DNA from: Clostridium gallinarum
GTDB lineage: Bacteria; Bacillota; Clostridia; Clostridiales; Clostridiaceae
DNA length: 40,312 nucleotides
NCBI RefSeq assembly: GCF_014836325.1
Contig: NZ_JACSQZ010000031.1
Coordinates: 1 to 40,312 of the forward strand
Reading direction: 5' to 3'
This document shows positions 1,395 to 39,045 of this stretch, piece after piece. Below the pieces are notes generated by a model that did no database searches, was not told the DNA's origin, and worked only from the letters and a program-made list of their open reading frames with translations. The first letter of the stretch is position 1; each line of letters starts with the position of its first letter. The position numbers and the translations under genes are program-made.

Positions 1395-1570
1395 GGAAAT
1401 TATGATAAAGTCAAATATTTGAACAACTTTATGAGAGTTATTAAGATTCGTAGTATAAGAAGTAGAGTTTTTATAATTTACTTCCTTCAATTTGCAAAGA
1501 GATAAACATTGCATGACGGTGACTTGGAGTGCATGCGACGGAGCAAGGAATATAATGTTTATTTCTTTTT
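1395..1570 (+). repeat. Dispersed structured element, copy 1 (stem type B)
   Basis: In the orientation that ends in a T-run, this copy reads on the plus strand. AAATTAT (1397-1403) pairs with ATAATTT (1473-1479) and closes a roughly 85-nt domain. That domain has its own inner hairpin, ATAAAGT against ACTTTAT (1404-1431). A terminal hairpin follows, GAGATAAACATT (1499-1510) with AATGTTTATTTC (1554-1565), then TTTTT. The apical loop holds the conserved GGTGACTTGGAG...GCGACGG core. It fills the space between convergent guaC and the gene ending at 1573. Related copies lie near 8023, 22291, 23599, 26804, 33189, 38764 and 38949. Confidence 0.85.
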
Positions 1571-1572
1571 AT

Positions 1573-2328
1573 TTATACTAACTCTTTAACCTCAATAAAT
1601 GGATTTCTATATCTATTTTTCTTTAAAGTTTTATTTCCTATATTTATAGCTTCTTTCGGACATATATTAATGCAAGCCATACAATCAGTACATTTTCCTA
1701 GCCATACTGGTTTATCATTAACCATTTTAATATTATCTACTGGACAAATTGATTTACACATTTTACATCCTATACATTTATCATTAACATTAAACCCTTT
1801 ATCTTTATTCTTAAATAAATTTTTCCAAGCATTATAAAAAATTCTCTTACTTGATTTATAATCAACTCTTCTTATTTCTTTATTTTTAATAGATTTTATA
1901 AAATTATCTAATATATCTTCATTTAATTTTATTGCTTTAAGTGCTCTCTCTTTTGTTGGATTTTTACCTGCCCTTGTATAATTAGAAATATATTTTACAC
2001 AAAGATAATTGCTAAGTTCACACTTACCATTTAAAAGTTCATTAATGTGAGAAAAACTTACTTTAGCGCCTCCGCCTCCTGTAACCCCTATTGCAAAAAT
2101 ATATGGTTTATCCTTTATATTTAATTTAGATATAAAGTCTTCTACCACTATAGGTAATGAACCACAATGAATTGGGTACACAAAACCTATTACATCATCC
2201 TTTAAATTAAAATCTTCATTTTTTATAGCATTTGGAATAGAAATTAACTCACAATGCTCTATCTTCTCTTTAATTTTTTTAGCTACATATAAGGAATTCC
2301 CTGTGGCTGTAAAATAATAAATCCTCAT
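1573..2328 (-). CDS. EFR1-type flavodoxin/ferredoxin protein
   Basis: The 251-residue soluble protein has two parts. An N-terminal flavodoxin-like fold begins MRIYYFTATGNS, where the TATGNS loop binds FMN phosphate. The C-terminus is a two-cluster ferredoxin module, with cysteines at 185, 188, 191, 195 and at 213, 216, 219, 223, each in a CxxCxxCxxxCP pattern. This is the layout of the EFRO/EFR1 family of clostridial redox proteins, which are thought to pass electrons between ferredoxin-like clusters and flavin. The partner and reaction are unknown. The gene stands alone, 107 nt after the next gene upstream, and its stop codon abuts dispersed element copy 1. Confidence 0.85.
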   Translation of the reverse strand: MRIYYFTATGNSLYVAKKIKEKIEHCELISIPNAIKNEDFNLKDDVIGFVYPIHCGSLPIVVEDFISKLNIKDKPYIFAIGVTGGGGAKVSFSHINELLNGKCELSNYLCVKYISNYTRAGKNPTKERALKAIKLNEDILDNFIKSIKNKEIRRVDYKSSKRIFYNAWKNLFKNKDKGFNVNDKCIGCKMCKSICPVDNIKMVNDKPVWLGKCTDCMACINICPKEAINIGNKTLKKNRYRNPFIEVKELV

Positions 2329-2435
2329 TCTTATTCTCCTTTTAAATTTATATATTAAATATATTTTCTAATTTTATCTTCATTAAAATAATAAGCTAAT
2401 AACTCAATTATAAATAGTTACTAGCTCTATTAATT

Positions 2436-2795
2436 TTATTTTATACTTTCATTTAATACTTCATATGTATACTCTATTATTTCAGCACAAGATACTCCAC
2501 TTTTCTTTAATTCAATACATTCAAGTGTTCCATACTTTTCTTTTACCTTATTAACTACTTCTTTTGTATATTGTCTTGATTCATTTGGCGCTTTTCCTTC
2601 TTCTCTTCCCTTTATAGCTCCAATAGAAATAAGAGCTCCTGCTATGGCACCACAAGTTCCTCCAACTGCCATACCTGTCCCAAACGGAGTTGCAAGTTGA
2701 ACTGGAATATTTAAGTTATGCTCTTCATTAAAAGTCTTTACTATAGATTCTGCACAATTATATCCTTCTTCTCTAAATTCTAATACTTTTTTCAT
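2436..2795 (-). CDS. C_GCAxxG_C_C family redox protein
   Basis: This 119-residue protein has the pattern that names the family (C_GC_C_C / PF09719). There is a cysteine near the N-terminus (EGYNCAES), then the glycine-rich GGTCGAIAGALISIG segment, then two C-terminal cysteines (GTLECIEL and GVSCAEII). The central segment is hydrophobic. Family members are presumed redox or metal-binding proteins, but no reaction is established. It begins 75 nt downstream of rluF on the same strand and sits beside the EFR1 gene, so a redox role is plausible but inferred. Confidence 0.85.
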   Translation of the reverse strand: MKKVLEFREEGYNCAESIVKTFNEEHNLNIPVQLATPFGTGMAVGGTCGAIAGALISIGAIKGREEGKAPNESRQYTKEVVNKVKEKYGTLECIELKKSGVSCAEIIEYTYEVLNESIK

Positions 2796-2870
2796 TTTTC
2801 TAAACTCACCTTCTATAATAATCTTTACAAATATATTATATCATTTATGTATTACTATATAAATTATATA

Positions 2871-3566
2871 TTACTCTTCTATTTTAGTATAAAGTTTTAA
2901 ATTTTCCACTTCTTCTTTAGTTAAATTTCTCCACATTCCAGATTCTATTCCTTTAGACACTATATTTACTATTCTTATTCTCTCTAATTTAATGACGTTA
3001 TATCCAAAAACCTTACACATCCTCCTTATTTGCCTATTTAAGCCTTGAGTTAAAATTATATTAAATGTATTGTTATTTATTCTTGTTACTATACAAGGTC
3101 TCGTAACTGTATCTAGTATATTAACTCCATTTGACATTTTGTATATAAATTCATCATCAAAATCCTTATCTAAGGTTACTATATACTCCTTTTCATGATA
3201 ACTTTCTGAAGATATTATCCTATTAGCAAGATCTCCATCATTAGTCATTAAAATAAGCCCCTCTGAATCCTTATCTAAACGACCAACTGGAAAAACATAT
3301 TCTTTGTAATTTAAAAAATCAATTATATTATTTTTTATATCTCTTGATGAAGTACAAATTATCCCCCTAGGTTTATTTAAAACTAAATATATCTTTTCTT
3401 TTTGCTTAACTTTTTCACCATCTAATAATATATCATCGCTTTCTTCAACCCACTGACCTTGCTCACAAAGCTTTCCATTAACAATTATCCTCTTATCTTC
3501 AATTAACCTACTTACTTCTTTTCTTGAACAATATCCATAGTTACTTAATAGTTTGTTTATTCTCAA
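2871..3566 (-). CDS. rluF: 23S rRNA pseudouridine synthase, RluF type
   Basis: The 231-residue protein has an N-terminal S4 RNA-binding domain (residues 1-48, MRINKLLSNYGYCSRKEVSR) followed by an RsuA/RluB/E/F catalytic domain. The catalytic aspartate is D98 in GRLDKDSEGL. The RsuA-family motif GLNRQIRRMCKVFGYNVIKLER is present in the C-terminal half. RluF modifies U2604 of 23S rRNA in E. coli; assignment to RluF rather than RluB or RsuA rests on overall resemblance and short length. The next gene upstream on this strand ends at a terminator (3602-3637), so rluF should have its own promoter in the short gap. Confidence 0.85.
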   Translation of the reverse strand: MRINKLLSNYGYCSRKEVSRLIEDKRIIVNGKLCEQGQWVEESDDILLDGEKVKQKEKIYLVLNKPRGIICTSSRDIKNNIIDFLNYKEYVFPVGRLDKDSEGLILMTNDGDLANRIISSESYHEKEYIVTLDKDFDDEFIYKMSNGVNILDTVTRPCIVTRINNNTFNIILTQGLNRQIRRMCKVFGYNVIKLERIRIVNIVSKGIESGMWRNLTKEEVENLKLYTKIEE

Positions 3567-3601
3567 AGTTATAATATCCTTTCTATTTTAAAAATTATAA
3601 T

Positions 3602-3637
3602 AACCCTCGAAAACATATTTTTAAACTATCGAGGGTT
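3602..3637 (-). terminator. Intrinsic terminator of the GGDEF gene
   Basis: AACCCTCGA (3602-3610) pairs with TCGAGGGTT (3629-3637). Read on the minus strand it is followed by a T-rich stretch. It separates the diguanylate cyclase gene from rluF. Confidence 0.8.
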
Positions 3638-3681
3638 TCATAATTAAGACAATTTATAGAAATAATAATTACACATTAAAT

Positions 3682-6712: not shown

Positions 6713-6830
6713 ATAAGCACTCCTTATATCACATATTCATTCTATTTATTTTACTTATATCATTAATTGGTGTATATTACAATAGTATGAAATATTTGAA
6801 ACAAAATTTTAATTGTTAGGAGAGGTTATT

Positions 6831-8021
6831 GTGGAAAGAGTTGTAGGTACAATTGTTAGAGGTCTTCGTTGCCCAATCATCAAAGAAGGAGATAGCATTG
6901 AAGATATAGTTGTAGAAAGCGTACTTAAAGCTTCAGAAGCTGAAGGATTTACTATAAATGATAAGGATATAGTTACTGTAACTGAATCAATAGTTGCACG
7001 TGCTCAAGGAAATTATGCTTCTATAGATAATATTGCTACAGATATTAAAGCTAAATTTGGTGATGATACTATTGGTGTAATATTCCCTATTTTAAGCCGT
7101 AACCGTTTTGCAATTTGTCTTCGTGGTATAGCAAAAGGTGCTAAAAAAATAGTATTAATGCTTAGTTATCCATCTGATGAAGTTGGAAATCACTTAGTTG
7201 ATTTAGATATGTTAGATGAAAAAGGTGTTAATCCTTGGACAGATGTTTTAACAGAAAAAGAATTCCGTAATTTATTTGGTTATAATAAACATACTTTTAC
7301 AGGTGTTGACTACATAGATTATTATAAATCTTTAGTTGAAGAATATGGTATTGAATGTGAAGTAATATTCTCAAACAATCCTAAGACTATCTTAAATTAT
7401 ACAAAGAGCGTTCTTACTTGTGATATTCATACAAGATTTAGAACTAAGAAAATTTTAAAAGCAAATGGCGGAGAAAAAGTTTATAGCCTTGATAATATAT
7501 TATGTGAATCTATTGATGGAAGTGGTTGCAATGAAGAATATGGACTACTTGGTTCAAATAAATCAACAGAAGAAACTATTAAGTTATTCCCTCGTAACTG
7601 TCAACCAGTAGTTGATAATATACAAGCTATTCTTAAAGAAAAGACAGGTAAAGATGTTGAAGTTATGATTTATGGAGATGGAGCATTTAAAGATCCTGTG
7701 GGTAAGATTTGGGAACTTGCTGATCCAGTTGTTTCACCAGCATATACTTCAGGATTAAACGGTACTCCAAATGAAATAAAATTAAAATATCTTGCTGATA
7801 ATAACTTTGCTGATTTAAAAGGTGAAGAACTTAAAAACGCAATATCTGAATATATTAAAAATAAGGAAGCAGATTTAGTTGGTTCTATGGAATCTCAAGG
7901 TACTACTCCAAGAAGACTTACTGACCTTATAGGTTCATTATCAGACTTAACATCAGGAAGTGGAGATAAGGGAACTCCTATTATCTTCATCCAAGGTTAT
8001 TTCGATAATTATACAAAATAA
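6831..8021 (+). CDS. CofE-like (F420-0:L-glutamate ligase family) protein
   Basis: The 396-residue protein resembles the F420-0:gamma-glutamyl ligase family (PF01996), which adds glutamate to coenzyme F420 using GTP. Conserved-looking stretches are TESIVARAQGNY, IFPILSRNRFAICLRGIAKGAKKIV and VMIYGDGAFKDPVGKIWELADPVVSPAY. A GTG start at 6831 is preferred because AGGAGAGG (6818-6825) lies just before it; an earlier TTG at 6813 would put that site inside the gene. The protein is longer than archaeal CofE (about 250 residues). Clostridia of this type are not known to make F420, so the real substrate may differ. It is transcribed away from the LysR gene and ends before dispersed element copy 2 and a bidirectional terminator. 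Confidence 0.75.
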   Translation: MERVVGTIVRGLRCPIIKEGDSIEDIVVESVLKASEAEGFTINDKDIVTVTESIVARAQGNYASIDNIATDIKAKFGDDTIGVIFPILSRNRFAICLRGIAKGAKKIVLMLSYPSDEVGNHLVDLDMLDEKGVNPWTDVLTEKEFRNLFGYNKHTFTGVDYIDYYKSLVEEYGIECEVIFSNNPKTILNYTKSVLTCDIHTRFRTKKILKANGGEKVYSLDNILCESIDGSGCNEEYGLLGSNKSTEETIKLFPRNCQPVVDNIQAILKEKTGKDVEVMIYGDGAFKDPVGKIWELADPVVSPAYTSGLNGTPNEIKLKYLADNNFADLKGEELKNAISEYIKNKEADLVGSMESQGTTPRRLTDLIGSLSDLTSGSGDKGTPIIFIQGYFDNYTK

Positions 8022-8022
8022 T

Positions 8023-8100
8023 AAAAAAATTTTAAAGTATCATATATAGATTCGATTTCAAAATATAAATCATCTTGCTATGATAACTTAAGAATTGAAA
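8023..8100 (-). repeat. Dispersed structured element, copy 2 (degenerate, type A stem)
   Basis: TTTAAAGTATCATA (8031-8044) and TATGATAACTTAA (8079-8091) match the type A arms of the other copies, and the loop keeps AATCATCTTGC. The rest of the core and the tail domain have decayed. It lies between the CofE-like gene and the terminator at 8102. Confidence 0.65.
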
Positions 8101-8101
8101 T

Positions 8102-8149
8102 AAAAAAAGTCATCTACAATGATTTAAGAATATGTAGATGACTTTTTTT
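8102..8149. terminator. Bidirectional intrinsic terminator
   Basis: A perfect 17-bp stem, AAAAAAAGTCATCTACA (8102-8118) with its complement at 8133-8149, has A and T runs that serve both strands. It would end the CofE-like gene from the left and the ABC operon from the right. Confidence 0.92.
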
Positions 8150-12866: not shown

Positions 12867-13080
12867 TATGTATTAAATTCACTTAATTAAACCTAATTAA
12901 CATGTTTTTTATAAAGTTATTTCAATAAAACACCATTAATATAAATTTTTATAATCAGGACCACCCGTCAAACGGGTGGTTTGCTCTACGCCTATAAGGC
13001 TTTGTTACTGGCTGTGCTACTCGCACTCCGAACGGTTTGCCAACCGCATATTTTCTCTGGCTACCCCTAAAGGGGTTTTA

Positions 13081-13551
13081 TTACTTGCCTTTCTTTACCG
13101 GCTCACCCGTAAACGGGTCTATATATTCCTTTAAACTCATTTGTTCATAAGCTAAATCTTCTTGAATTTGATTTTTTATATATTCTTCTATTACTTTTTT
13201 ATTTCTTCCTACTGTATCAACGTAGTAACCCTTGCACCAAAACTGCCTATTTCCATATTTATATTTTAAATTTGCATGTCGGTCAAATATCATTAACGAG
13301 CTTTTACCCTTTAAATACCCCATGAATTGCGAAACACTTAATTTAGGTGGTATACTGACAAGCATATGTATATGATCTTTGCACGCATTTGCTTCTATAA
13401 TTTCTACTCCTTTTTGTTCACATAACTTTCTTAATATTGCTCCTACATCAGCTTTTATTTTCCCATAAATTATTTGTCTTCTATACTTTGGCGCAAAAAC
13501 TATATGATATTTACAATTCCATTTACTATGTGCTAAACTACTATTATCCAT
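13081..13551 (-). CDS. tnpA: IS200/IS605-family Y1 transposase
   Basis: The 156-residue single-strand DNA transposase has the HUH motif (H60 and H62 in KDHIHMLVSIP). The likely catalytic tyrosine is Y124 in IEEYIKNQ. TnpA acts as a dimer that cuts and joins single-stranded ends through a 5' phosphotyrosine. The length matches IS200 TnpA (about 150 residues), and no key residue is lost, so it may be active. GGAGGTATCCGATATG gives an excellent ribosome binding site that is itself paired in a leader hairpin. The nearest known clostridial example is the IS200-like IS1469, but identity was not tested. Confidence 0.93.
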   Translation of the reverse strand: MDNSSLAHSKWNCKYHIVFAPKYRRQIIYGKIKADVGAILRKLCEQKGVEIIEANACKDHIHMLVSIPPKLSVSQFMGYLKGKSSLMIFDRHANLKYKYGNRQFWCKGYYVDTVGRNKKVIEEYIKNQIQEDLAYEQMSLKEYIDPFTGEPVKKGK

Positions 13552-13558
13552 ATCGGAT

Positions 13559-13613
13559 ACCTCCTTGTATTATAGTTGTGGTCGGCAAACCTACTATAAT
13601 TTTACAACGGAGG
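13559..13613 (-). promoter_or_regulatory. RBS-sequestering hairpin of tnpA
   Basis: In the tnpA mRNA leader, ACCTCCGTTGTAAAATTATAG (complement of 13593-13613) pairs with CTATAATACAAGGAGGT (complement of 13559-13575), burying the AGGAGGT ribosome binding site. Occlusion of the tnpA start by a left-end stem is established for IS200 in enterobacteria. Confidence 0.8.
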
Positions 13614-13690
13614 TTTTTTTATTTCTACTCACCGCTAGAAGCTTTCCGGAACCACAGGTAGAACCTGTGGTATTCTAAATACAATAAAAA

Positions 13691-16575: not shown

Positions 16576-17291
16576 AATTGTCTTCCTCCTTCATCAATTC
16601 CCTTTACTACTTCTATTTTAGTGCTACATCCTTGAACAGTACATCCACTACAGCCTGTGCTACAATGATCTAAGGATGTATTTTTTTTGTTACTAGCACT
16701 AGGTGCATTAAATTTATTTTGTAATGCTGTTAAAATTGCTATTACAAAAAATGCTCCAGGAGCAAGTACAAATATAGATACTGGTTCATAGGCACTTGGA
16801 AGAACTGTAAATCCAAATAATTGTCCACTTCCTATTAATTCTCTTGCTGCACCAATAACTAAAAGACCAGCTGTAAACCCAAGTCCCATACCAATTCCAT
16901 CAAAAATAGATGGTAACACCTCATTTTTAGCTGCATAAGCTTCTGCTCTTCCAAGAATTATACAGTTAACAACTATAAGAGGAATATATATGCCAAGGGA
17001 TTTATATAAACTTTCATAAAAATATGCTTCAAGTAACATTTCTACCACAGTAACAAAAGAAGCAACTATAACAATATATGCTGGCATTCTAACTTTATCA
17101 GGTATTACTTTTCTAAGCATTGATATTAACATATTTGACATTACAAGAACTATAGTTGTTGCTAGTCCCATTCCAATTCCATTAATAGCTGCAGTAGTTA
17201 CAGCCATAGTAGGACACATTCCAAGCATCATTACAAAAGTAGGATTTTCTTTAATTACTCCATTGTAAATACGTTCTGTACATTTATTCAT
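16572..17291 (-). CDS. rnfE: Rnf complex membrane subunit E with Cys-rich tail
   Basis: The 239-residue RnfE/NqrD-family protein has about six membrane helices. The conserved cysteine motifs LGMCPTMAVT and IVVNCIILGRAEAYA match the cluster-binding site shared with RnfA. The unusual part is a C-terminal extension after the last helix, DHCSTGCSGCTVQGC, with cysteines at 210, 214, 217 and 222. RnfE is usually around 200-215 residues and the tail makes this one longer. The tail looks metal- or cluster-binding, but no function is known to me. The rnfG stop lies 3 nt before the start. Confidence 0.93.
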   Translation of the reverse strand: MNKCTERIYNGVIKENPTFVMMLGMCPTMAVTTAAINGIGMGLATTIVLVMSNMLISMLRKVIPDKVRMPAYIVIVASFVTVVEMLLEAYFYESLYKSLGIYIPLIVVNCIILGRAEAYAAKNEVLPSIFDGIGMGLGFTAGLLVIGAARELIGSGQLFGFTVLPSAYEPVSIFVLAPGAFFVIAILTALQNKFNAPSASNKKNTSLDHCSTGCSGCTVQGCSTKIEVVKGIDEGGRQL

Positions 17292-22078: not shown

Positions 22079-22290
22079 AATAATCCCTTCTTTCTTAAAT
22101 TATTAATTATTTTATATATCTTTTTATCTAACTTAAACAAAACCATTTTTATCTATTATACATGTTTTATTTATTTAAAAAAACATTTTACAATAACTTA
22201 ATCAACAAAATATTTCCAGCAAGTAATTCAATATGTACTAATATGTAAATTTAAATTCTTTTATTAAAATTATATTTATGATTTATTATA
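22079..22290. other. Gene-free AT-rich stretch before dispersed element copy 3
   Basis: No reading frame of coding appearance and no clear regulatory motif is visible. It presumably holds the promoter of the small lipoprotein. Confidence 0.4.
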
Positions 22291-22437
22291 AAAAAGTGTT
22301 AAAGTATCATATCCAGGTTCCGCCCTACAGTTCCAAATCATCTTGCTATGATACTTTAACACTTCTAAACTGAAGGAAGGAAATTGTAAAACTGTTAGTC
22401 ATAGGGTAATAGCTTTATAATTTCTAAAAAAATAAAA
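22291..22437 (-). repeat. Dispersed structured element, copy 3 (type A stem, variant tail)
   Basis: This is the cleanest hairpin of the family, with 16 perfect base pairs between GTGTTAAAGTATCATA (22296-22311) and TATGATACTTTAACAC (22347-22362). The loop is 35 nt with a diverged core (GTTCCGCCCTACAGTTCCAA). The tail keeps the closing sequences (GGAAATTGT and ATAATTTCT), but its interior differs from other copies. On the minus strand the hairpin ends in TTTTT. Confidence 0.85.
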
Positions 22438-22438: not shown

Positions 22439-22483
22439 AGGAGACTATAAACAGTAAAATCAATTACTTATATATAGTCTCCT
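22439..22483 (-). terminator. Terminator of the DUF2798 gene
   Basis: AGGAGACTATA (22439-22449) pairs with TATAGTCTCCT (22473-22483). On the minus strand it runs into TTTTTTATTTTTTT. Confidence 0.88.
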
Positions 22484-23026: not shown

Positions 23027-23027
23027 T

Positions 23028-23184: not shown

Positions 23185-23598
23185 ATGGATAACAAATTAA
23201 ATATAATAGATTTAATAAGTGAGAATCATATAAAATTAAGAAAACTTGCTGAAGACAGATGGGCAAAGACTGGTGAAGAAGAAATTTCTCATACTGAAGG
23301 ATTTCTTTTAGCTAAGATTAACATGGGTAAAATATCTATTTCAGAAGCTGCAAGACAAGCTAATATTTCTAGGCAAGCTATGTTTAAATGTGCCAAAAAA
23401 TTAGAATCTAGAGGATATTTAGAATTCGATATTGATGAAACTAATAATAAATATGCTTATTTAACTACTAAAGGAAATAACTACTGTATAAAAAGTAAGA
23501 AATTAAAAGAAAATATAGAAAAAGAAATATGTGAAAATATAGGAAAAGAAAACTTAGAAATTCTAAAGAAAATTCTTAATAAAAATCTCATTAAGTAA
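23185..23598 (+). CDS. MarR-family transcriptional regulator
   Basis: The 137-residue winged-helix protein has the recognition region KISISEAARQANISRQAMFKCAKKLESRGYLEF (about 51-83), then a wing with DETNNKYAYLTTKG. Length and layout fit a dimeric MarR repressor. Two near-identical palindromes lie in the 212-bp gap to the divergent DUF2798 gene and are its probable operators, giving autoregulation. AGGTGA before the ATG supports the start. Dispersed element copy 4 begins directly after the stop codon. Confidence 0.9.
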   Translation: MDNKLNIIDLISENHIKLRKLAEDRWAKTGEEEISHTEGFLLAKINMGKISISEAARQANISRQAMFKCAKKLESRGYLEFDIDETNNKYAYLTTKGNNYCIKSKKLKENIEKEICENIGKENLEILKKILNKNLIK

Positions 23599-23710
23599 GA
23601 AAGTGTTAAAGTATCATATCCAGGTTCCGTCGCATACGCTCCAAGTCACCTTGCTATGATATTTTAACACTTACAAACTAAAAGATTGAAAATGTTTATC
23701 TCTTTATAAA
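23599..23710 (-). repeat. Dispersed structured element, copy 4 (type A hairpin joined to type B arm)
   Basis: GTGTTAAAGTATCATA (23603-23618) pairs with TATGATATTTTAACAC (23655-23670) with one wobble. The loop has the full core. Instead of the usual tail, the copy continues AAACTAAAAGATTGAA and then AATGTTTATCTCTTTATA (23691-23708), which is the right arm of a type B hairpin without its partner. Confidence 0.8.
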
Positions 23711-23712
23711 TA

Positions 23713-25335: not shown

Positions 25336-25368
25336 TATATCCCTCTTTTTTCAGTTAAATTATTTATA

Positions 25369-26649
25369 CTATTTATTATGTCCTATTAACTCTCTTTTAT
25401 CTTTTTTTAACATTTTAATTGCAGTTAATAATAAAACATATCCTGTAACTACACAAGCTAATATTACTAACCATGCTGTAGTAAAGACTCCTGTCTTATC
25501 TACTATAAGTCCAAAAATAGTAGATCCTCCTGCAAATCCAAAAGCAAAGAATAATTGTATAAATCCAAGCATAACACTTGAATCTTTTTTCCCAAATAAA
25601 TCAGTTGCCATAAATGCTGGGGCTGACATATATGAAAATACATTTAATCCATATGCAATTGAATATAAATATGCAAGGCCTTTTATATTCATAGCTAATA
25701 ATAATGCTATTACAGCTGTTGATTGAAGAATCATTGATAATGTCATAGTTTTTAAAGTTCCCAATTTATCAAATAATACTCCTCCACCTACATTACCAAA
25801 TAAACAAAATACTGCAAATAAAGATCCTAATATTCCTACTACTGCTGATGGTAAATTTAATCCATTTGTAAAATAAGTTGCATATTGTGTACTTAACGCA
25901 GATATTGATATCCCTACTATTGCATATCCTATACCAAAAATCCAAAATGCTGGTTTCTTAACATTCTCTGAAACACCCAGTCCTTCAAACTCTTGAATAT
26001 GTAATTTTTTTAAATCTTCCTCTACTGTATCATCATTTAAATTTATTTCATCTTCTTTTGGTAATCTTATAAATAATAATATAATAGGTAAACTAACTAT
26101 AGCTGAAACAACACCAAATATTGCATAAGTTATTGATGAACCATAGTGAGATAATAAATGTTCTGTTATTTGTTGTAAAAATACATTTCCTATTGAACCA
26201 CCGGCAAAAGCTATTCCTAAAGCTTTACCTCTTCCTTTCTTAGGAAACCATTGTTGTATAAGATATGGTACAGCTAATGCAGAAAAGAATATACATCCTA
26301 TTTGACAAATTGCATTCCAAAAATAAAATTCTGGTAATGTGCTACTTCTACTAAACATAAAGAATCCAAAACTTGAAACCATTGTTCCTGATATGAATAT
26401 AGTTTTTATTCCTACTTTTCCAAATAACTTACCTAGTATAGGGGATGCTATTGAAGAGGCTAAAGCTCCTATTGTAAATATCAATGAGAATCCTGATAAC
26501 GTAAATCCAAACTCACTAACTACATGTGGTATAAATAGTGGCTGTATATTTTGTGCTATTCCAAATGGTATTGCCTGTATTACCATACATATAAATACTA
26601 TAAAATATTTTTTAAAATTATTATGATTTTCTAGTGTAACTTTGTTCAT
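25369..26649 (-). CDS. MFS transporter
   Basis: The 426-residue protein has twelve membrane helices with a central cytoplasmic loop (about residues 190-215, LPKEDEINLNDDTVEEDLKK). The helix 2-3 loop motif is GKLFGKVGIK. It resembles oxalate/formate-antiporter-like (OFA) and monocarboxylate porters, which exchange or import small organic acids. GAGGG 6 nt before ATG 26649 supports that start (MNKVTLENHNNF) over a weaker one at 26691. It precedes the amidohydrolase gene and probably imports its substrate. Confidence 0.88.
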   Translation of the reverse strand: MNKVTLENHNNFKKYFIVFICMVIQAIPFGIAQNIQPLFIPHVVSEFGFTLSGFSLIFTIGALASSIASPILGKLFGKVGIKTIFISGTMVSSFGFFMFSRSSTLPEFYFWNAICQIGCIFFSALAVPYLIQQWFPKKGRGKALGIAFAGGSIGNVFLQQITEHLLSHYGSSITYAIFGVVSAIVSLPIILLFIRLPKEDEINLNDDTVEEDLKKLHIQEFEGLGVSENVKKPAFWIFGIGYAIVGISISALSTQYATYFTNGLNLPSAVVGILGSLFAVFCLFGNVGGGVLFDKLGTLKTMTLSMILQSTAVIALLLAMNIKGLAYLYSIAYGLNVFSYMSAPAFMATDLFGKKDSSVMLGFIQLFFAFGFAGGSTIFGLIVDKTGVFTTAWLVILACVVTGYVLLLTAIKMLKKDKRELIGHNK

Positions 26650-26803
26650 ATTTATCCCTCTTTTTCTTCTTTCGTTTTCTTTCAAACTCATTTTATTCTT
26701 TTTTTTATTATTTGTTAAATACTTATATTTTATGTTTTATATAATTTAATACTTATATAAAAAGAACAAAATAAAACTTCTATATAAATTCTCTTTATTT
26801 CCT

Positions 26804-26992
26804 AAAAAAAGAGATATACATTGTATTCCTTGTTCCGTCGCATACGCTCCAAGTCACCGTCATACAATGTGTATCTCTTTACAAACTGAAGGAAATTATT
26901 AAAACTCCAATTCTTACACTACAAATTTTACTACTCTCATAAAATTATCTACAATTGTTCCATAGATATAATTTCCTAAAAAATAAAAAAAT
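26804..26992 (-). repeat. Dispersed structured element, copy 5 (full length, type B stem)
   Basis: This is the most complete copy. The hairpin GAGATATACATTGTAT (26811-26826) pairs with ATACAATGTGTATCTC (26862-26877), and an A-run at 26805-26810 becomes a T-run on the minus strand. The tail domain closes through GGAAATTAT (26891-26899) and ATAATTTCC (26968-26976). It contains an inner hairpin TATCTA/TAGATA (26946-26968). On the minus strand it follows the 2H phosphoesterase gene. Confidence 0.88.
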
Positions 26993-27064
26993 GAATTTAT
27001 TAACAAGCAATTAACAAATTCACTCAAAAATATATAATTACTAGTTCTACTAATAACTAAATCA

Positions 27065-27592
27065 TTATTTATTTAAATTCCATACAACTATATCTCTAAG
27101 GGGATTTGTTTTAGATAGTGCAATTTTAGTCACTTTCCCATTAAATATACTGAAATTTTTATCTAATTCTTGAAATGCTAAAAATAATTCTTCTCTTGTA
27201 AGCTTTTTACCAATAGTTGTGTGTGGTATCCATTGAAATGGTAAATAAAATTTACTAATATCTATATCATCTAAGAAGGATAACCCTTCATATATATGCA
27301 CTGATAAATTATGTAAATACTCATTTAAAATTGGAGTTAAAAAAACAACTGAAGATTTAAATGCCCCTATAGATGCAAAGGTTATTAAGCCTTCTTTTCT
27401 ATTTTTTATTACTTTGTCTAATACTTCTATAACACGTTCTTCCTTCTTACTTTGAAATGCTGCAATAGTTATATGTGGCGGAACATTATTATCTATCATA
27501 AAAGTATTTCCACATTTATCAGCTACCTTATCTATAAATCCCTGTATTTTATTTGTTGATTTATCGTCAAAATATAAAGATACTAAATACAT
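27065..27592 (-). CDS. 2H phosphoesterase (2'-5' RNA ligase family)
   Basis: The 175-residue protein has the two H-x-T/S-x signatures of the 2H superfamily, HITIAAF (from residue 41) and HTTIGKK (from residue 128). Family members hydrolyse or ligate 2'-5' or cyclic phosphodiester bonds in RNA or small nucleotides. The specific substrate is unknown. It stands alone, with dispersed element copy 5 downstream as its likely transcript end. Confidence 0.88.
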   Translation of the reverse strand: MYLVSLYFDDKSTNKIQGFIDKVADKCGNTFMIDNNVPPHITIAAFQSKKEERVIEVLDKVIKNRKEGLITFASIGAFKSSVVFLTPILNEYLHNLSVHIYEGLSFLDDIDISKFYLPFQWIPHTTIGKKLTREELFLAFQELDKNFSIFNGKVTKIALSKTNPLRDIVVWNLNK

Positions 27593-32010: not shown

Positions 32011-32045
32011 GGTATTACCTCCAAAACTTATTTTATTTTTTATAT

Positions 32046-32134
32046 AAAAAGACCTAGAGTCTAGCAAATACATAGCTATATAAACTATATATTTGCTAAA
32101 CTCTAGGTCTTGCCTGCCCAATCAGTAACAATCC
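32046..32134 (-). promoter_or_regulatory. LicT-type RAT antiterminator and terminator before bglF
   Basis: On the minus strand a RAT element (32134 to 32106; begins GGATTGTTACTG and contains GCAGGCAAGACC) overlaps by 5 nt a 20-bp terminator stem (32050-32070 with 32090-32110) that ends in a T-run. Folding of the RAT, stabilised by bound LicT, excludes the terminator. This is the established BglG/LicT mechanism. Confidence 0.95.
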
Positions 32135-33034: not shown

Positions 33035-33109
33035 AAAAAAAGACATTAATTAACGCAAAAAATTATATTTGCATTAATTAAGGTCTTGCCTGCTTCCCAG
33101 TAACAATCC
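33035..33109 (-). promoter_or_regulatory. LicT-type RAT antiterminator and terminator before licT
   Basis: A second RAT (33109 to 33082; GGATTGTTACTGGGAAGCAG followed by GCAAGACC) overlaps a terminator stem (33041-33059 with 33068-33086) that ends in seven Ts on the minus strand. It lies between the operon promoter and licT, giving a positive autoregulatory loop. Confidence 0.95.
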
Positions 33110-33188: not shown

Positions 33189-33334
33189 TAAAAAAGTGTT
33201 AAAGTATTATATCTAGGTTAGCCTTACATCTCCAAGCCACCTTGCTATGATATTTTAACACTTACAAACTGAAGGAAGGAAATTATTAAAACTTCACTTC
33301 TTATACTATAAGTTTAGCTTCTCTCTAAATTACT
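33189..33334 (-). repeat. Dispersed structured element, copy 6 (type A stem, truncated tail)
   Basis: GTGTTAAAGTATTATA (33196-33211) pairs with TATGATATTTTAACAC (33246-33261) through 16 positions with two wobbles. The core is partly diverged (TTAGCCTTACATCTCCAAGCCACC). The tail keeps only its hairpin-side half and stops at the permease stop codon (33335-33337). On the minus strand it is the likely transcript end of the purine operon. Confidence 0.85.
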
Positions 33335-34900
33335 TTATACATATTCAAATTTTTCTTGTGGCTCACACCACTTATTTCTTCCTAAGTGCATTAAATATGC
33401 AAGTATTGAAAAAATAACATATCCAATTGCAAAAGGAGATTTTATATAAAATCCTAATTCTGCACTGTGTATAAAGCCAAAACATGATAATAATGATGCT
33501 ACTAGTGATGTTATAGCTACTTTATCTAATCTATTGTCAATTATAAACACTGTTACAGTTCCTAGTATAAGACCTATAATTATAGCTCCTGATTTTACTT
33601 CTGCAAGACCTCTCCACATTACACCATTATCTATTAAATATTGAGATACATCTGCTGAATATCCAACTACCCCTGATTCAAGTGTTTCTGTCCATTTATC
33701 TGCTAAACCAACTGCTCCTGTGATTTGTGTAAATAAATAATCTGCTACTGGTGGTATCATTGCAACTACAATTGCTGCATAATGTTTCACCTTAACGTCT
33801 TTAAATGATTGACAAACCATTACTGTTGAACACCAAAGATAAGTTATTGCTGCAATTGCTGGTGGTACTAAATTACTAAAGAATGTAAATAATCCAAATA
33901 CTCCTGCAATTCCTAATAATAATCCTCCAACCCATGAATATCCTATTCCTACCCCTGACTTCTTAAGACCTCCATGACCTAGCCAAACTGTATTTGGAAC
34001 AACTCCTCCAAAACAAGCTGAAATCATTGTACAAATACCATCTGCAAACTGAGTTATTCTAACATTATAATTATCTCCTGCTGCATTTGCTGCTTCAACA
34101 TTATCCATAGTTTCAATAAAATTATATATTTCAATTGGAATAATAATAGTTAAATATGGTACGACAACTACAAATCCATTTATCAATGCTTGTATAGATG
34201 TAACTGGATTTGGCATATAAAAACCTACTCCTGAAAAATCTATATGTGTTCTTCCTAAAGCTAAAGAATATACAATTCCTCCTATAATGGCTAATACTAA
34301 TGGTGGGAATTTTCTTTTAAATAAATATCCTCCAAATACACCTACCATAGCTACTAAAAGAATTGGTAAGCCTATAATAGGATCACTAAATACATCAAAA
34401 ACACCTTGAGTTGCCATCCAAATGAATCCTATTCCTGCAACAGTGCCTAAAAGTGCTGCTCTTGGAATCCTCTTTTTCATCCAAGGGCCTATAAAACCAC
34501 CTAAAAATTCAACAAATCCTCCAATAAAACATGCTGCTACTGCTGCTGACCAAGTTAATTCTGGATCACCTAATGCATAATGTAGTGGCATAATAACCCC
34601 ATATAAAATAACAAACATTGCTGGAGTAGATACTCCTGATGGTAATGCTGTTACATCTGATCTACCTTCTTTTTTACCAAGTCTATATCCCATATATGAA
34701 TAAAAGAATCCACTTACTAAAAGTCCTATAGACATAGCTGGAATAACTCTTCCATAAACAATTTCATCAGGCCAAGCTAATACTCCTGATAAAGTAGCTA
34801 TTACAATTAAATAATTTACAATATTATTTGTAAGTGTATAAGTTAATCCACCTAAATCCTCTGCTTTGAAGAAAGGAATTTTTAAAGTAGTTTTCATCAT
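33335..34900 (-). CDS. NCS2-type purine permease
   Basis: The 521-residue protein has about twelve to fourteen membrane helices and resembles the AzgA-like/NCS2 nucleobase transporter group (TALPSGVSTPAMFVILYGVIMP; IIIPIEIYNFIETMDNVEAA). It most likely imports adenine, hypoxanthine or xanthine by cation symport. The exact base is not readable. Its start lies 21 nt after the first adenine deaminase gene, so the three genes form one operon in which imported adenine could be deaminated at once. Confidence 0.85.
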   Translation of the reverse strand: MMKTTLKIPFFKAEDLGGLTYTLTNNIVNYLIVIATLSGVLAWPDEIVYGRVIPAMSIGLLVSGFFYSYMGYRLGKKEGRSDVTALPSGVSTPAMFVILYGVIMPLHYALGDPELTWSAAVAACFIGGFVEFLGGFIGPWMKKRIPRAALLGTVAGIGFIWMATQGVFDVFSDPIIGLPILLVAMVGVFGGYLFKRKFPPLVLAIIGGIVYSLALGRTHIDFSGVGFYMPNPVTSIQALINGFVVVVPYLTIIIPIEIYNFIETMDNVEAANAAGDNYNVRITQFADGICTMISACFGGVVPNTVWLGHGGLKKSGVGIGYSWVGGLLLGIAGVFGLFTFFSNLVPPAIAAITYLWCSTVMVCQSFKDVKVKHYAAIVVAMIPPVADYLFTQITGAVGLADKWTETLESGVVGYSADVSQYLIDNGVMWRGLAEVKSGAIIIGLILGTVTVFIIDNRLDKVAITSLVASLLSCFGFIHSAELGFYIKSPFAIGYVIFSILAYLMHLGRNKWCEPQEKFEYV

Positions 34901-34921: not shown

Positions 34922-36655
34922 TTATTTTGCTTCAATATCAATAAATTTAAATTGTGTTACATCAAATAGTCCCATATCTGTTAACTTAATTTCTGGTATA
35001 ACTGCTAGCGACATAAAGCAAAGAGTCATAACTGGTTCTACTTCTTTACTTACAAATAAAACATTATGAGCAACTTCATGTATATTTTTAAGCTTTTTAT
35101 CTATCCATTCTCCAGTTTTATTACTCATAAGACCTGCAATTTCCATAGGCATGCTTTCAATTATCTCTCTATTATTTACAACAATTATTCCGCCACCTTG
35201 CTTAATTAACTCTTCTACTGCATAAGCCATATCTTCATCATTAACACCAACAACTATAATATTATGAGAATCGTGAGCTATTGATAATGCTATAGCGCCT
35301 TCCTTTATTCCATAACCTTCAAGTAAGGCAACAGCAACATTTCCTGTATTTTGATGACGCTCAACAACTGCTACCTTAACTACATCTTCATTTGAATTAT
35401 AAATAAATTCATTATTTTCATTTGTACTTACATTTACTATATTCTTTTTAGTAACAACTCCACCTGGAAGAACTTTTATTGTATGAGCTTTTTCCGAATT
35501 AATTTTTAATTTTAACTTGTCAATTGAAAAATCTTTAACATGAAAACTTCTCTTAGTATCTGATATATCATATTTAGCTATTGGTAGTTTATATTCTCCA
35601 CCTTCAGCTACTTCTTTTCCATTAATAAATACATTATCTACATTAAAATCTTTTAAATTATCAAATAACACAATATCAGCTCTAAGTCCTGGTGCAATTC
35701 CTCCTCTATCTTCTAATCCATAACATTCTGCTGCATTTAATGTAGCCATTTGAATTGCTATAATTGGATCTATATTTTCTTCAACACACATTCTTAAACT
35801 ATTATCTAAATGTCCATCATTTAATATAGTTTTGGGTTGCATATCATCTGCACAAAGAAGACATCTCTTACTATTGTAAGGAGTAACTCCTTTTGCTAGA
35901 GTTCTTAAATTATGACAGGCAGAGCCTTGACGAAGCATTACATACATGCCTCTTGATATTCTGTCATGCATATCCTCTATAGTTTCACATTCATGATCCG
36001 TCTTAATTCTTGCTGCTGCATAAGCATTTAAATTTTTTCCTTTTAATCCTGGACTATGACCATCAATAACCTTTCCTGTGTTTTTAGCAATAATTAATTT
36101 ATCTAAAACATCATCATGTCCTAATGTGACTCCTGGAAAATTCATAAATTCCCCTAATCCCTGAATTTTATCACTAGACATGATTTCTTCCATATCTTTT
36201 GCATCAATTTTCGCACCTGAGTGTTCAAAAGGAGTAGCCGGAACACATGATGGCAACATCATTCTTATATCTAATGCTGTTCCTTCTGCTGCATTTAGCA
36301 TATAATCAATTCCCTTAAAACCACAAACATTAGCAACTTCATGAGGATCTGCTATTATTGTTGTAGTACCATGAGGAACAACTAATCTGCCTAGTTCCTC
36401 TGGACTAACATAAGATGATTCTATATGGATATGTGCATCAATAAATCCTGGTGCTGCGTATTTTCCTTGTGCATCTATAACTTTTACACCTTCATAATTT
36501 CCAATTCCTGCTATAATATTATCAGAAAGTGCAATATCCCCATCTACAATAATTCCATTATAAACATCAACAATCTTACAATTTTTAATTACTAAATCTG
36601 CTAAAACTCTACCAGCTGCTATATCAATTAACTTTTTAAATTTATTTTTTTCCAT
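34922..36655 (-). CDS. ade: Adenine deaminase
   Basis: The 577-residue amidohydrolase of the AdeC type converts adenine to hypoxanthine and ammonia. All expected metal-site residues are visible: HIH (H75, H77), E169 in GLGEFMN, H200 in DGHSPG, H221 in TDHE and D270 in CADD. The family motif ADPHEVANV is intact. The C-terminal domain has the usual HDSHNIIVVG segment. It is 18 nt downstream of a divergent paralogue and just ahead of the purine permease, all in one operon. Confidence 0.93.
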   Translation of the reverse strand: MEKNKFKKLIDIAAGRVLADLVIKNCKIVDVYNGIIVDGDIALSDNIIAGIGNYEGVKVIDAQGKYAAPGFIDAHIHIESSYVSPEELGRLVVPHGTTTIIADPHEVANVCGFKGIDYMLNAAEGTALDIRMMLPSCVPATPFEHSGAKIDAKDMEEIMSSDKIQGLGEFMNFPGVTLGHDDVLDKLIIAKNTGKVIDGHSPGLKGKNLNAYAAARIKTDHECETIEDMHDRISRGMYVMLRQGSACHNLRTLAKGVTPYNSKRCLLCADDMQPKTILNDGHLDNSLRMCVEENIDPIIAIQMATLNAAECYGLEDRGGIAPGLRADIVLFDNLKDFNVDNVFINGKEVAEGGEYKLPIAKYDISDTKRSFHVKDFSIDKLKLKINSEKAHTIKVLPGGVVTKKNIVNVSTNENNEFIYNSNEDVVKVAVVERHQNTGNVAVALLEGYGIKEGAIALSIAHDSHNIIVVGVNDEDMAYAVEELIKQGGGIIVVNNREIIESMPMEIAGLMSNKTGEWIDKKLKNIHEVAHNVLFVSKEVEPVMTLCFMSLAVIPEIKLTDMGLFDVTQFKFIDIEAK

Positions 36656-36673
36656 TTCAATTCACCCTCTATA

Positions 36674-38458
36674 CTACTTATTTTCGATAAGTTCTAAAAT
36701 TGGATCAAAGGTATCTAATGCTATACAATCAACTGGTCCAACATCTGTAATTGCATAGTCTGGAATTGCTGTAATTGGTAAAAAGAACATGTACATTAGT
36801 GGTTCTGGTAAATCACATCCTAATTTATTTGCTGCTTTGTTTACTCTTTTTTCCCACTCTGATATAACTTCTGCTTCTAAATCACTTGCTATTCCTCCAA
36901 CAGGTAATGGTAAAAATTCTAAAACTTTTCCATCACATACTACAACTTGTCCACCACCATTTTCTATTAAGTGATTAACAGCTATAGACATATCTTCTGC
37001 TGATGCCCCCATAACTATTAAATTATTATCATCTGGTGCTGCCGTTGAAGCCATTGCTCCTTTTTTAAGCTTCCATCCTGAACAAAACGCTAAAGATTTA
37101 TTTCCATTTCTTCCAAATCTCTCTAAAACAGAAACCATTACTGCATCTTGCTCTGTATCTGGAAGTACTATTCCCTCTTTAATTTCTAATACTACATCTC
37201 TTCTCTTTCTAACAAATGGACCTTTAACATCCATGGAAAGAACTTTAGCTTTTCCATTTTTAATATTTACTTTGTATTCAAAATCTTCTTTAGTTGTTTT
37301 TTTACATTTCAATTCTCCTGTTAAAACAGAACTTCTTTTTGGCGCCTTTAATTCGTAAGTTAATTTTCCATTTTTAGCAACTAACTTACCATTAGTTATT
37401 ACTGTATCTACTTTAAATTCTTCTATACTATCTACTAATAAAATGTCTGCTATCCTTCCTGGTGAAATTGAACCTATTAAGTGATCTATTCTATAGGCTT
37501 CCGCACTATTAATTGTAGCCATTTGAATTGCATTCATTGGATCTACACCTTCTTTAATTGCTAAACGTACAACATTATCTAAATGACCTTTCTCTAAAAT
37601 ATCAGAAGCAGTTACATCATCTGTACAAAAGCTTACTCTTCTTGCTAAATAAGGATTAACTTCTGTTACAGCTCTTATATTTTCCTTTAAAAAATGAGTA
37701 ACTGATGATTCACGGATAAGCATATGCATTCCTTTTCTCATTTTTTCAACTACTTCTTCATGATCATAACTTTCATGATCTAATCTTATCCCTGCACAAA
37801 GGTAACCATTTAATTCTTTTCCTCTTGCCATTGGTGCACATCCAAATACAGGTAATCTATTTTTAGCTGCTACTTCTATTGCTCCTAAAGTATTTTCATC
37901 TTCTTCAGTCACATACTCTCTAACTGTTTCCCATACGCCAAAGCATTCTGGCCACTTTTGAACTTCTTCATGAATTTCTTTTGTAAAATTAAATGCAACT
38001 GTTGATTCTGGAAAAGTGTATGGTGTTTTATACGGTGCTCCCCAAAAAACTTTTAATGGGCTTTGTTTTATTTCCTCAAAAACTTCTTTTAAACCTTCTA
38101 ATCCTGAAACGGAAATATATTCATCAAGACCTGAAATCATACTAGTTGTTCCACAAGGAACTACTGCTTTTGCATAACTTGTAATTGAAAGTTTACTACA
38201 TTCACTATGGATGTGACCATCAATAAGACCTGGTACTAAATATTTTCCTGTTGCATCAATTATTTCAGTATTTTCATCTATATATTCTGATACATCTCCA
38301 ACTGCCACTATTGTATCTTCATATATTGAAACATCTGCCTTATAAATTTCGGCTGTCATTACATTTACAAGATTACCATTTAGTATCACTGTTTGAGCTG
38401 GTATAATACCTCTTCCAGCACGGATAAGTTGTTTTAGATTTGTCATTGTTTGTTTCAT
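36674..38458 (-). CDS. Divergent adenine deaminase-like amidohydrolase
   Basis: This 594-residue paralogue of the next gene has the same two-domain layout and an HIH motif (H82, H84), a candidate metal glutamate E177 in VWETV, H228 in LDHES and D280 in CTDD. Two family landmarks are altered. The metal-ligand histidine of DGHSPG is a cysteine here (C207 in FGCAPM), and the ADPHEVANV motif is replaced by SGLDEYISVS. B. subtilis YerA is a comparable divergent relative of AdeC. The protein may therefore deaminate another purine or pterin rather than adenine. It is the first gene of the operon, with TTGGAGG before the ATG and a structured leader. Confidence 0.85.
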   Translation of the reverse strand: MKQTMTNLKQLIRAGRGIIPAQTVILNGNLVNVMTAEIYKADVSIYEDTIVAVGDVSEYIDENTEIIDATGKYLVPGLIDGHIHSECSKLSITSYAKAVVPCGTTSMISGLDEYISVSGLEGLKEVFEEIKQSPLKVFWGAPYKTPYTFPESTVAFNFTKEIHEEVQKWPECFGVWETVREYVTEEDENTLGAIEVAAKNRLPVFGCAPMARGKELNGYLCAGIRLDHESYDHEEVVEKMRKGMHMLIRESSVTHFLKENIRAVTEVNPYLARRVSFCTDDVTASDILEKGHLDNVVRLAIKEGVDPMNAIQMATINSAEAYRIDHLIGSISPGRIADILLVDSIEEFKVDTVITNGKLVAKNGKLTYELKAPKRSSVLTGELKCKKTTKEDFEYKVNIKNGKAKVLSMDVKGPFVRKRRDVVLEIKEGIVLPDTEQDAVMVSVLERFGRNGNKSLAFCSGWKLKKGAMASTAAPDDNNLIVMGASAEDMSIAVNHLIENGGGQVVVCDGKVLEFLPLPVGGIASDLEAEVISEWEKRVNKAANKLGCDLPEPLMYMFFLPITAIPDYAITDVGPVDCIALDTFDPILELIENK

Positions 38459-38483
38459 ATTTTTCCTCCAATAAATAAAGTTT

Positions 38484-38538
38484 TAGATACCCCGGCTATT
38501 AAAGCGATCCAGGTTTCCCGTCCTGCAGTTTGTATCTA
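38484..38538 (-). promoter_or_regulatory. Compact structured leader of the purine operon
   Basis: On the minus strand TAGATAC (38538 to 38532) pairs with GTATCTA (38490 to 38484). This closes a 55-nt domain with an inner CAGG/CCTG hairpin around ACGGGAAA and a GCTTTAATAGC hairpin. It ends 25 nt before the start codon. The three-way-junction outline recalls small riboswitches, but the sequence does not match the purine riboswitch core and I cannot name a class. Confidence 0.55.
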
Positions 38539-38578
38539 GACGAATTTAATGGACTGTTAATAATATTTTCGTTTTGTA

Positions 38579-38622
38579 TATCACGATTATTATTTTAATT
38601 TTAATATAAATTGTTCGTGTTA
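38579..38622 (-). promoter_or_regulatory. Candidate PurR box pair at the purine operon
   Basis: On the minus strand box 1 reads TAACACGAACAAT (38622 to 38610, 10 of 13 PurBox positions). The inverted box 2 (38579-38591, TATCACGATTATT on the plus strand) is weaker, with 8 of 13. The core starts are 30 bp apart, the same spacing and orientation as at guaC. Box 1 covers the predicted transcription start. Confidence 0.5.
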
Positions 38623-38627
38623 TTTTG

Positions 38628-38656
38628 ATAATATCATATATTTTTTTATAATACAA
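38628..38656 (-). promoter_or_regulatory. Promoter of the purine salvage operon
   Basis: On the minus strand TTGTAT (38651-38656) and TATTAT (38628-38633) are 17 bp apart. Transcription would start near 38621, giving a leader of about 160 nt. Confidence 0.65.
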
Positions 38657-38763
38657 GTATTTATAAATATTTTTAGTAAATATTCTGTATATTCTAAAAA
38701 CCCAATAATACTTTATTTTTAGCTAGTAACTTACTTATAAAATTCTAACTATATATCTAAAAA

Positions 38764-38948
38764 TAAAAAAGTGTTAAAATATCATATCCAGGTTCCGTCG
38801 CAAGCTCCAAGTCACCTTGCTATGATATTTTAACACTTCAAAACTGAAGGAAAGAAATTATTAAAGCTCTAATTCTTACACTACGAATTTTGCTACTCTC
38901 ATAAAACTATCTACAATTTGTGCATAGATATAATTTCATAAAGAATAA
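38764..38948 (-). repeat. Dispersed structured element, copy 7 (full length, type A stem)
   Basis: GTGTTAAAATATCATA (38771-38786) pairs perfectly over 16 bp with TATGATATTTTAACAC (38821-38836). The loop core is shortened (TCGCAAGCTCC). The tail closes through GAAATTAT (38854-38861) and ATAATTTC (38930-38937), with an inner TATCTA/TAGATA hairpin. On the minus strand the hairpin ends in TTTTTT. Confidence 0.88.
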
Positions 38949-39045
38949 AAAAGAGATAAACATTATATTCCTTGCTCCGTCGCATACGCTCCAAGGCAAT
39001 CTCATACAATGTTTATCTCTTTGCAAACTGAAGGAAGGAAAGTAT
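38949..39045 (-). repeat. Dispersed structured element, copy 8 (type B stem, tandem with copy 7)
   Basis: GAGATAAACATT (38953-38964) pairs with AATGTTTATCTC (39008-39019). The loop has the complete TCCGTCGCATACGCTCCAAG core. Only the start of the tail (CAAACTGAAGGAAGGAAAG) is present. It begins within a few bases of the end of copy 7 in the same orientation, so a type A and a type B copy stand head to tail. Confidence 0.88.

Follow-up and report, generated by a model that had tools for sequence, protein, structure and literature searches.

A high-copy two-hairpin repeat of Clostridium that fits a miniature mobile DNA element better than an undescribed RNA

A stretch of 40,312 nt from Clostridium gallinarum (contig NZ_JACSQZ010000031.1, number 69 of the 144 contigs of a 3.43-Mb assembly; referred to below as the window) carries hairpin-forming sequences that resemble one another at eight intergenic places, and the question raised by this locus is what these sequences are. 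A preliminary description regarded them as a family of structured elements and possibly as an undescribed RNA. Based on their copy number, their arrays, their placement behind terminators and their replication-led orientation, a mobile DNA element was favoured, and the repeats were found to fit miniature mobile DNA elements better than an undescribed RNA. The explanation to which we give a probability of about 0.6 is that these high-copy two-hairpin repeats multiply in the form of folded single-stranded DNA, being copied on the lagging-strand template with the help of a trans-acting factor.

Repeat alignment revealed related sequence at all eight places (copies 1 to 8; Table 1). The core GGTGACTTGGAGC was found eight times in the window with up to three mismatches (shuffle mean 2.3; eight was reached by 1 of 100 shuffles). 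Seven of these occurrences belong to family copies, the one at 17026 is not a copy, and the place at 8023-8100 is not among them. The covariance model R1, which was built from 13 hairpins and is based on the second hairpin of the unit (HP2), was run unfiltered and gave five strong copies (copies 1, 4, 5, 7 and 8; 93 to 63 bits) and two copies with decayed loops, namely copy 3 (38 bits) and copy 6 (24 bits, similar to the scores that the scan gave to some unrelated hairpins). Copy 2 had no R1 match and was detected by repeat alignment only. When single-strand folds were compared with those of shuffled sequences, z ranged from -3.0 to -8.4 for seven copies and was -1.4 for copy 2. The window was thus confirmed to hold five well-preserved copies, two partly decayed copies and one remnant, and the proposal of a dispersed, intergenic and structured family with a conserved apical core was borne out.

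The unit consists of a first hairpin (HP1, GGAAA…TTTCC), a CCTTYAGT box and HP2 with a stem of ~18 bp, and a T-run follows most copies in the C. gallinarum genome. Read on the motif strand, HP2 is composed of a variable left arm, GG(T/C)GACTTGGAGC, two to five variable bases, GCGACGGA(A/G)C, the right arm and the T-run. HP2 alone measures ~80 nt and the full unit up to ~185 nt. Copies with a left end showed the order T-run, A-T-T-N-T-Y, TAGGAAANTATA, HP1, CCTTYAGT, HP2 and T-run; the T-runs that flank copies on both sides could be a duplication or the element's own part. The foot of HP1 (GGAAA/TTTCC) is constant and carries at least four body types, two of which are combined with both HP2 types (A and B) in the C. 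gallinarum genome, the other two being found only with type B or with unclassed HP2. An exact CTTYAGT box was present in 124 of 210 copies; two downstream controls gave 10 and 2. The left arm of HP1 was missing in 95 of the 210 copies, and two of the 210 were without the linker in the analysis of these HP1-less copies. Head-to-tail arrays with a spacing of ~183 bp were observed, for example on contigs C5 and C81 and at 38764-39113 of the window.

The preliminary description had assigned a common ~100-nt domain to the complete copies and a common long hairpin to the family, and each claim stood in part. The domain, which folds through GGAAATTAT/ATAATTTCC, was complete at three places (1393-1485, ~26890-26985 and 38843-38940) and shortened at ~33270-33333, but it is modular, because another, shorter hairpin domain takes its place in copies 3 and 8 (22291 and 38949) and nothing does so in copy 4 (23599). 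The long hairpin has the same apical core throughout, but two stem sequences, AGAGATAAACATTGTAT and AGTGTTAAAATATCATA, were found beneath this core in the strong window copies. A k-turn in the HP2 apex was considered by eye and was unsupported. At locus L029 (~1440-1480), an inverted and shortened HP1 left end directly adjoins an HP2 copy, an arrangement that suggests a rearrangement at the hairpin foot.

The 13-base core, with at most one mismatch, was located at 167 places in the C. gallinarum genome, with no place for the pattern read backwards, a frequency far above chance, and at least 150 R1 matches were obtained there, from which 108 distinct copies were used. Within the genus, 15 of 68 genomes were carriers with 1 to at least 68 R1 matches each, and in an order-wide scan 17 of 225 genomes had matches, namely the same 15 and two genomes of other genera within the same taxonomic family; as both scans scored a limited number of candidates per genome, these counts are lower bounds. 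The exact 21-base pattern was found in 14 stretches of genome_contigs, of which 13 came from four Clostridium species or isolates (C. nigeriense 5, C. sartagoforme 3, MAG28 3 and C. paraputrificum 2), and no Enterococcus record was among the matches listed for this strict core pattern. The fourteenth stretch, from Acidobacteria, had no stems and was set aside as a chance match; eight exact matches in viral contigs, none with flanking stems, were treated in the same way. Plasmid and phage records gave no match to the single query used (window 38740-39120). Several contigs of the C. gallinarum assembly end in a repeat copy, and the family therefore probably breaks short-read assemblies. The analyses of relatives drew on G065 (41 matches, all used in the replication tests; 30 loci in the covariation, landing-site, anatomy and HP1-less analyses), G004 (75 matches, 55 fetched and 54 used for the replication tests, one copy lying on the origin contig) and G016 (34 matches, 15 loci, 18 copies).

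The position of the copies relative to terminators was examined at the 111 recognisable left ends. A terminator-like hairpin with a T-run was present within 25 nt upstream of 64 of them, compared with 3 of 111 a hundred bases upstream, none on the other strand and 4 downstream. Within arrays, the upstream hairpin is the HP2 of the preceding copy, so the 64 are not all host terminators. Among the 95 copies without the HP1 left arm, a terminator-like hairpin was found in the place of HP1 in 41, compared with 2 of 95 in the upstream control and 14 of 95 in the control for the reverse strand; without G016, in which this hairpin is mostly the genome's own repeated one, the count was 31 of 78. An empty site was found in the relative G015, which is 88% identical up to window position 8021: the gene is followed by a terminator-like hairpin and no repeat is present. 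Further empty sites were sought in G065, G069 and G032 by comparison with window positions 22291, 23599 and 33189, where the stretches between the genes were not alignable.

The orientation of the copies was compared with the direction of replication. G065 is a single scaffold of 3.8 Mb with dnaA at 187 kb, and the sign of its intergenic GC skew changes between 2.12 and 2.20 Mb. According to dnaA and the skew, the motif strand ran in the leading-strand sense (that is, it was the lagging-strand template) in 36 of 41 copies of G065; the same was found for 49 of 54 copies in G004, whose replichores were assigned by the skew of the sampled stretches alone, so that orientation followed replication in 85 of the 95 copies of both genomes. 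As most genes run in this direction too, the informative sites are those at which the genes disagree. At sites with convergent or divergent flanking genes, 24 of 28 copies went with replication (p 0.0002; 19 of 23 convergent and 5 of 5 divergent), and 20 of 23 did so when only open reading frames (ORFs) of at least 150 aa were counted as flanking genes. Between co-directional genes on the lagging strand, three of four copies went with replication. Local GC skew, which was correct in 77 of 81 copies with an assigned replichore, placed 87 of the 108 copies of the C. gallinarum genome in the leading-strand sense, including 33 of the 45 whose flanking genes converge or diverge (p 0.002); in seven further genomes the corresponding counts were 32 of 40 and 17 of 19. 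Replication, not the genes, sets the orientation in most of the genomes examined. A possible clustering of the G004 copies near the terminus was also considered.

The stems were found to change while pairing was kept. Between genomes, left-arm identity was 0.44 (0.32 after shuffling), and that of the motif halves was 0.75-0.98, a value inflated by construction since the motif helped to find the copies. In 204 of 243 copies, the right arm differed from the left-arm complement at no more than three of the 16 positions compared. Covariation, a check that had been suggested, was strong: two-sided changes occurred in all 23 stem pairs (103 distinct hairpins from three genomes), and 92.3% of the cells were paired, compared with 64.5% after shuffling and 29-61% for slid partners, in an alignment that was fitted to the model and leans towards structure and in which changes inherited by many copies were counted repeatedly. 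In 102 copies from the two subfamilies of the C. gallinarum genome, one-sided changes from a Watson-Crick pair led to G·T in 11 cases, to A·C in 12 and to other mismatches in 22, and two-sided changes were paired in 30 cases and unpaired in 3, from which we infer that new stems arise in source copies. A motif strand kept folded as RNA should favour G·T. Apex and arm divergence inside three subfamilies, for copies admitted with at most four mismatches in the arms, were 2.1 and 3.2%, 5.3 and 4.7%, and 8.7 and 9.9%. Since divergence is similar in apex and stems and G·T is as frequent as A·C, the constraint seems to act at the time of copying, and there is no sign that copies are kept as RNA after insertion. 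Selection is visible between subfamilies and not on resident copies, on which weak selection is possible; a replicating element would show selection in just this way. The fixed apex, the exchangeable stem and the shared foot box form a likely recognition signature that is readable across eleven genomes.

Taken together, the family is best read as a putative EFAR-like, terminator-seeking miniature insertion sequence, a variant of the EFAR kind. In such a mechanism the copies would move, and the folded single-stranded element on the lagging-strand template would be recognised and copied by a putative trans-acting factor, for which the HP2 apical motif GACTTGGAGC...GCGACGGA would be the recognition site. 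The element would re-create a terminator at its own 3' end, further copies would land behind it, and individual copies would carry no conserved function of their own. How small hairpin repeats with no obvious transposase multiply thus becomes a testable question. The probability is slightly lowered by the restricted combination of HP1 and HP2 types and by the fact that some of the upstream hairpins are part of another repeat copy.

Several further observations weigh against this mobile-element explanation. A left end was recognisable in only 111 of 210 copies, and neither inverted terminal repeats, looked for by eye, nor a target duplication could be identified. The single clear empty site could reflect a loss in G015 as well as a gain in the window. 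Between co-directional genes, 106 of 129 copies lie in sense and 23 in antisense, as a function at gene ends would also give. The strand assignment rests on GC skew except in G065, and higher transcription of leading-strand genes could mimic part of the bias. Many G016 copies are without the T-run, and no strand bias was observed in this genome (8 of all 18 copies, and 2 of the 6 with convergent or divergent flanking genes), so the replication bias is not shared by every subfamily. The CCTTYAGT box diverges by 10-17% within the subfamilies of the C. gallinarum genome, which is faster than the stem or the apex. Moreover, of the 15 carriers and 53 non-carriers, 10 and 33, respectively, had the Y1 transposase (PF01797), and 7 and 38 had the reverse transcriptase RVT_1. 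Y1 was absent from the carriers G065, G081, G087, G074 and G007, and RVT_1 from eight carriers that include the C. gallinarum genome; neither tracks the family. When the 687 ORFs near 193 loci were clustered, visual inspection of the 25 largest clusters showed no recognisable transposase. A mobiliser that has been lost, or one other than a classical transposase, may be among the candidates.

Venditti et al. (2007) are said to have united Efa-1 and EFAR in one family with a modular build-up and with stem-loops as integration targets. Integration into stem-loops, as reported for EFAR, has its counterpart here in the landing sites of the 64 left ends and in the empty site. In the available text of PMC2267715, Efa-1 of Enterococcus faecalis is described as 163 nt long, present in 65 copies and formed by a pair of adjacent stem-loops, and EFAR is filed among the bacterial miniature inverted-repeat transposable elements in that of PMC3733652. 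The Clostridium repeat, compared by description only, resembles these elements, which measure ~160-170 bp and have tens of copies, in unit size, in its many copies and in its two adjacent stem-loops, although not every copy has HP1. It differs in belonging to another genus, and the shared apex under exchangeable stems and the replication bias found for it do not appear in the available parts of the EFAR descriptions. No account of this Clostridium family was returned by a literature search that covered titles and the beginnings of abstracts, with subscription journals mostly outside it.

It is possible, if unlikely, that the repeats are non-autonomous derivatives of IS200/IS605-type (Y1 HUH) elements, with HP1 and HP2 as the end hairpins, which were moved in trans by a Y1 enzyme since lost from several genomes. 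The preference of IS608 and ISDra2 for the lagging-strand template, as given in the available text of PMC6006769, is matched by the strand-specific placement of the repeat in 85 of 95 copies, not in G016 (8 of 18). Hairpins lie at both ends, and free stems with a fixed apex would be expected if a protein recognised the hairpin in its folded state. Against this origin, the five carriers without Y1 include G081 (at least 58 matches) and G087 (at least 55), both of which carry closely similar copies (arm identity 0.87 within G087), and no gene-bearing relative sharing both ends of the repeat was found in the loci fetched. At 12940-13660 the window also contains an IS200-type insertion sequence whose Y1 transposase frame (13081-13551) is open; on contig C101 there is a further copy, which has one stop codon. 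A link between the repeat and the window copy was rejected, as the latter has its own, unrelated end hairpins.

Repetitive extragenic palindromic (REP) sequences, for which movement as single-stranded DNA by the Y1 enzyme TnpA-REP (RAYT) has been proposed, are 20-40 bp long with GTAG/GTGG or CGTC at one end, according to the available text of PMC6006769 and PMC3733652. Like them, the Clostridium repeat is a high-copy hairpin repeat, but it has a CTTYAGT box, an HP2 of ~80 nt and a unit of up to ~185 nt, and it has no consistent partner Y1 gene (none in 5 of 15 carriers). A GTAG/CGTC tag at the hairpin foot was not seen by eye in the repeat copies, no dedicated tag search having been made.

We consider it rather improbable that the repeats are functional structured RNAs, that is, elements of 3' untranslated regions or small RNAs whose apical internal loop would bind a protein or a ligand and whose T-run would end transcription. 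The covariation in all 23 pairs is consistent with such a role, as are the sequence-specific apical motif common to species with unrelated stems, the hairpin and T-run of most copies in the C. gallinarum genome, and the gene context: of 211 copies (three of them at locus edges), 63 lie between convergent and 16 between divergent genes, and the sense copies behind genes outnumber the antisense ones as given above. Pairing specific to one strand after insertion was not observed, however, as G·T (11) was not in excess over A·C (12), the motif is hardly better kept than the stems inside subfamilies, orientation tracks replication where genes do not decide, the copy numbers differ strongly between genomes of the genus, and Rfam gave no match. 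These findings tell against the earlier suggestion of an undescribed RNA, and an RNA role of the repeats is weakened. The accompanying statement that no known RNA matches was upheld: no family matching the repeat was found in Rfam at the gathering threshold for the window and ten loci, or at a relaxed threshold for two window stretches. The same Rfam search of the loci picked up tRNAs and a fluoride riboswitch away from the repeat, the latter (RF01734) at L142 1339-1411, shortly before a repeat copy in G065. Since covariation can stem from a mobile DNA hairpin, covariation alone is no proof of a functional RNA; for RNA discovery this is a warning that such a hairpin can yield strong covariation together with a conserved loop.

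A spread with no transposase at all, in which the repeat would be a replication parasite that uses terminators as landing sites, appears doubtful. The nascent lagging strand, with a 3'-terminal A-run, would stall at a terminator hairpin, re-anneal to the T-run of another copy, copy HP2 and HP1 back to the next T-run and return. Each insertion would restore the terminator, and the stems would be mended by intrastrand templating. If true, this copying would account for the T-runs at both ends, the arrays, the lagging-template bias, the missing enzyme, some shortened copies that start at the internal T-run of HP1 (between TTTT and ATAATTTCC) and the excess of paired over unpaired two-sided stem changes.

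An expanded intrinsic-terminator repeat, spread by duplication or recombination and kept as a supply of useful extra terminators, is still harder to credit. HP2 with its T-run appears terminator-like by sequence in most of the C. gallinarum copies, and convergent sites (63) exceed divergent ones (16). Intrinsic termination needs no long conserved apex, and that of HP2 would be superfluous, in line with the earlier view that the element is more than a plain terminator. Moreover, 64 of 111 left ends already lie immediately behind a terminator-like hairpin, the T-run is missing from many G016 copies, and the strand bias with replication also speaks against this explanation.

Group IIC introns sit strand-specifically behind terminator hairpins, a position that the repeat shares. 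A retro-insertion of this kind, in which a transcript with a fixed 3' end would insert behind terminator hairpins by target-primed reverse transcription, is nevertheless very improbable, for against the resemblance of the target to the structured DNA target of group IIC introns (available text of PMC10190682) and the variable 5' ends with HP2 kept stand the lack of an RVT_1 match in the C. gallinarum genome, G065, G016 and G084, the lack of a group II match in Rfam in the stretches searched, and a fixed 3' end that is partly an artefact, as the HP2-based model misses copies without HP2.

The arrangement and the sequences of BOX and RUP differ from those of the Clostridium repeat. BOX and RUP of Streptococcus pneumoniae, described as high-copy intergenic repeats of a low-GC Gram-positive genome in the available text of PMC2267715, are like it in copy number, intergenic position and type of host.

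The copies in the window and their immediate surroundings are listed in Table 1.

Table 1. Repeat copies and an adjoining host terminator in the window (HP2 positions of copies 1 and 3 to 8 are R1 matches on the strand given)
Feature	Position (strand)	Composition	Surroundings
Host intrinsic terminator-like hairpin with T-run, read from sequence	1340..1389 (+)		upstream of copy 1
Copy 1, complete	1388..1573 (+)	long-type HP1 from TAGGAAATTAT at 1393; linker CTTCAATTTG; HP2 type B, 1492-1572; T-run	directly behind the terminator of an IMPDH-family gene (345-1328); left end and terminator read from sequence
Copy 2, decayed remnant	8018..8104 (-)	HP2 stem type A	between F420-ligase-like gene (6813-8021) and terminator-like hairpin
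Copy 3	22290..22437 (-)	HP2 type A with decayed loop, 22290-22368; short HP1	directly behind terminator-like hairpin (~22440-22482) of DUF2798 gene
Copy 4	23597..23705 (-)	HP2 type A, 23597-23676, apical motif intact	preceded by leftover type B arm (~23689-23705)
Copy 5, complete, best preserved	26803..26985 (-)	HP2 type B, 26804-26884 (93 bits); long HP1; left end TAGGAAATTATA at 26967-26978	left end behind terminator-like hairpin
Copy 6	33189..33334 (-)	HP2 type A with decayed loop, 33190-33267; truncated HP1	HP1 truncated exactly at the stop codon of the gene at 33335-34900
Copy 7, complete	38762..38946 (-)	HP2 type A, 38765-38842; long HP1	adjoins the T-run of copy 8 in a head-to-tail array
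Copy 8	38946..39113 (-)	HP2 type B, 38946-39026; partly decayed short HP1 (GGAAAGTATA type)	

Amidohydrolase and major facilitator superfamily transporter genes form a block at 23599-27064 with a repeat copy at each end. This block is absent from the relative G065, in which a marR-like gene is followed, after ~115 bp, by the counterpart of the gene at 27065-27592. Hairpins at 32045-32115 and 33036-33091, beside a LicT-type antiterminator gene in a beta-glucoside phosphotransferase system operon, gave weak R1 matches and correspond to the inverted repeat I16; they are likely antitermination or terminator sites outside the repeat family. Two adjacent and diverged adenine-deaminase-like genes were found at 34922-38458, the second of which scored below the family cut-off (383.8 vs 472.5 bits).

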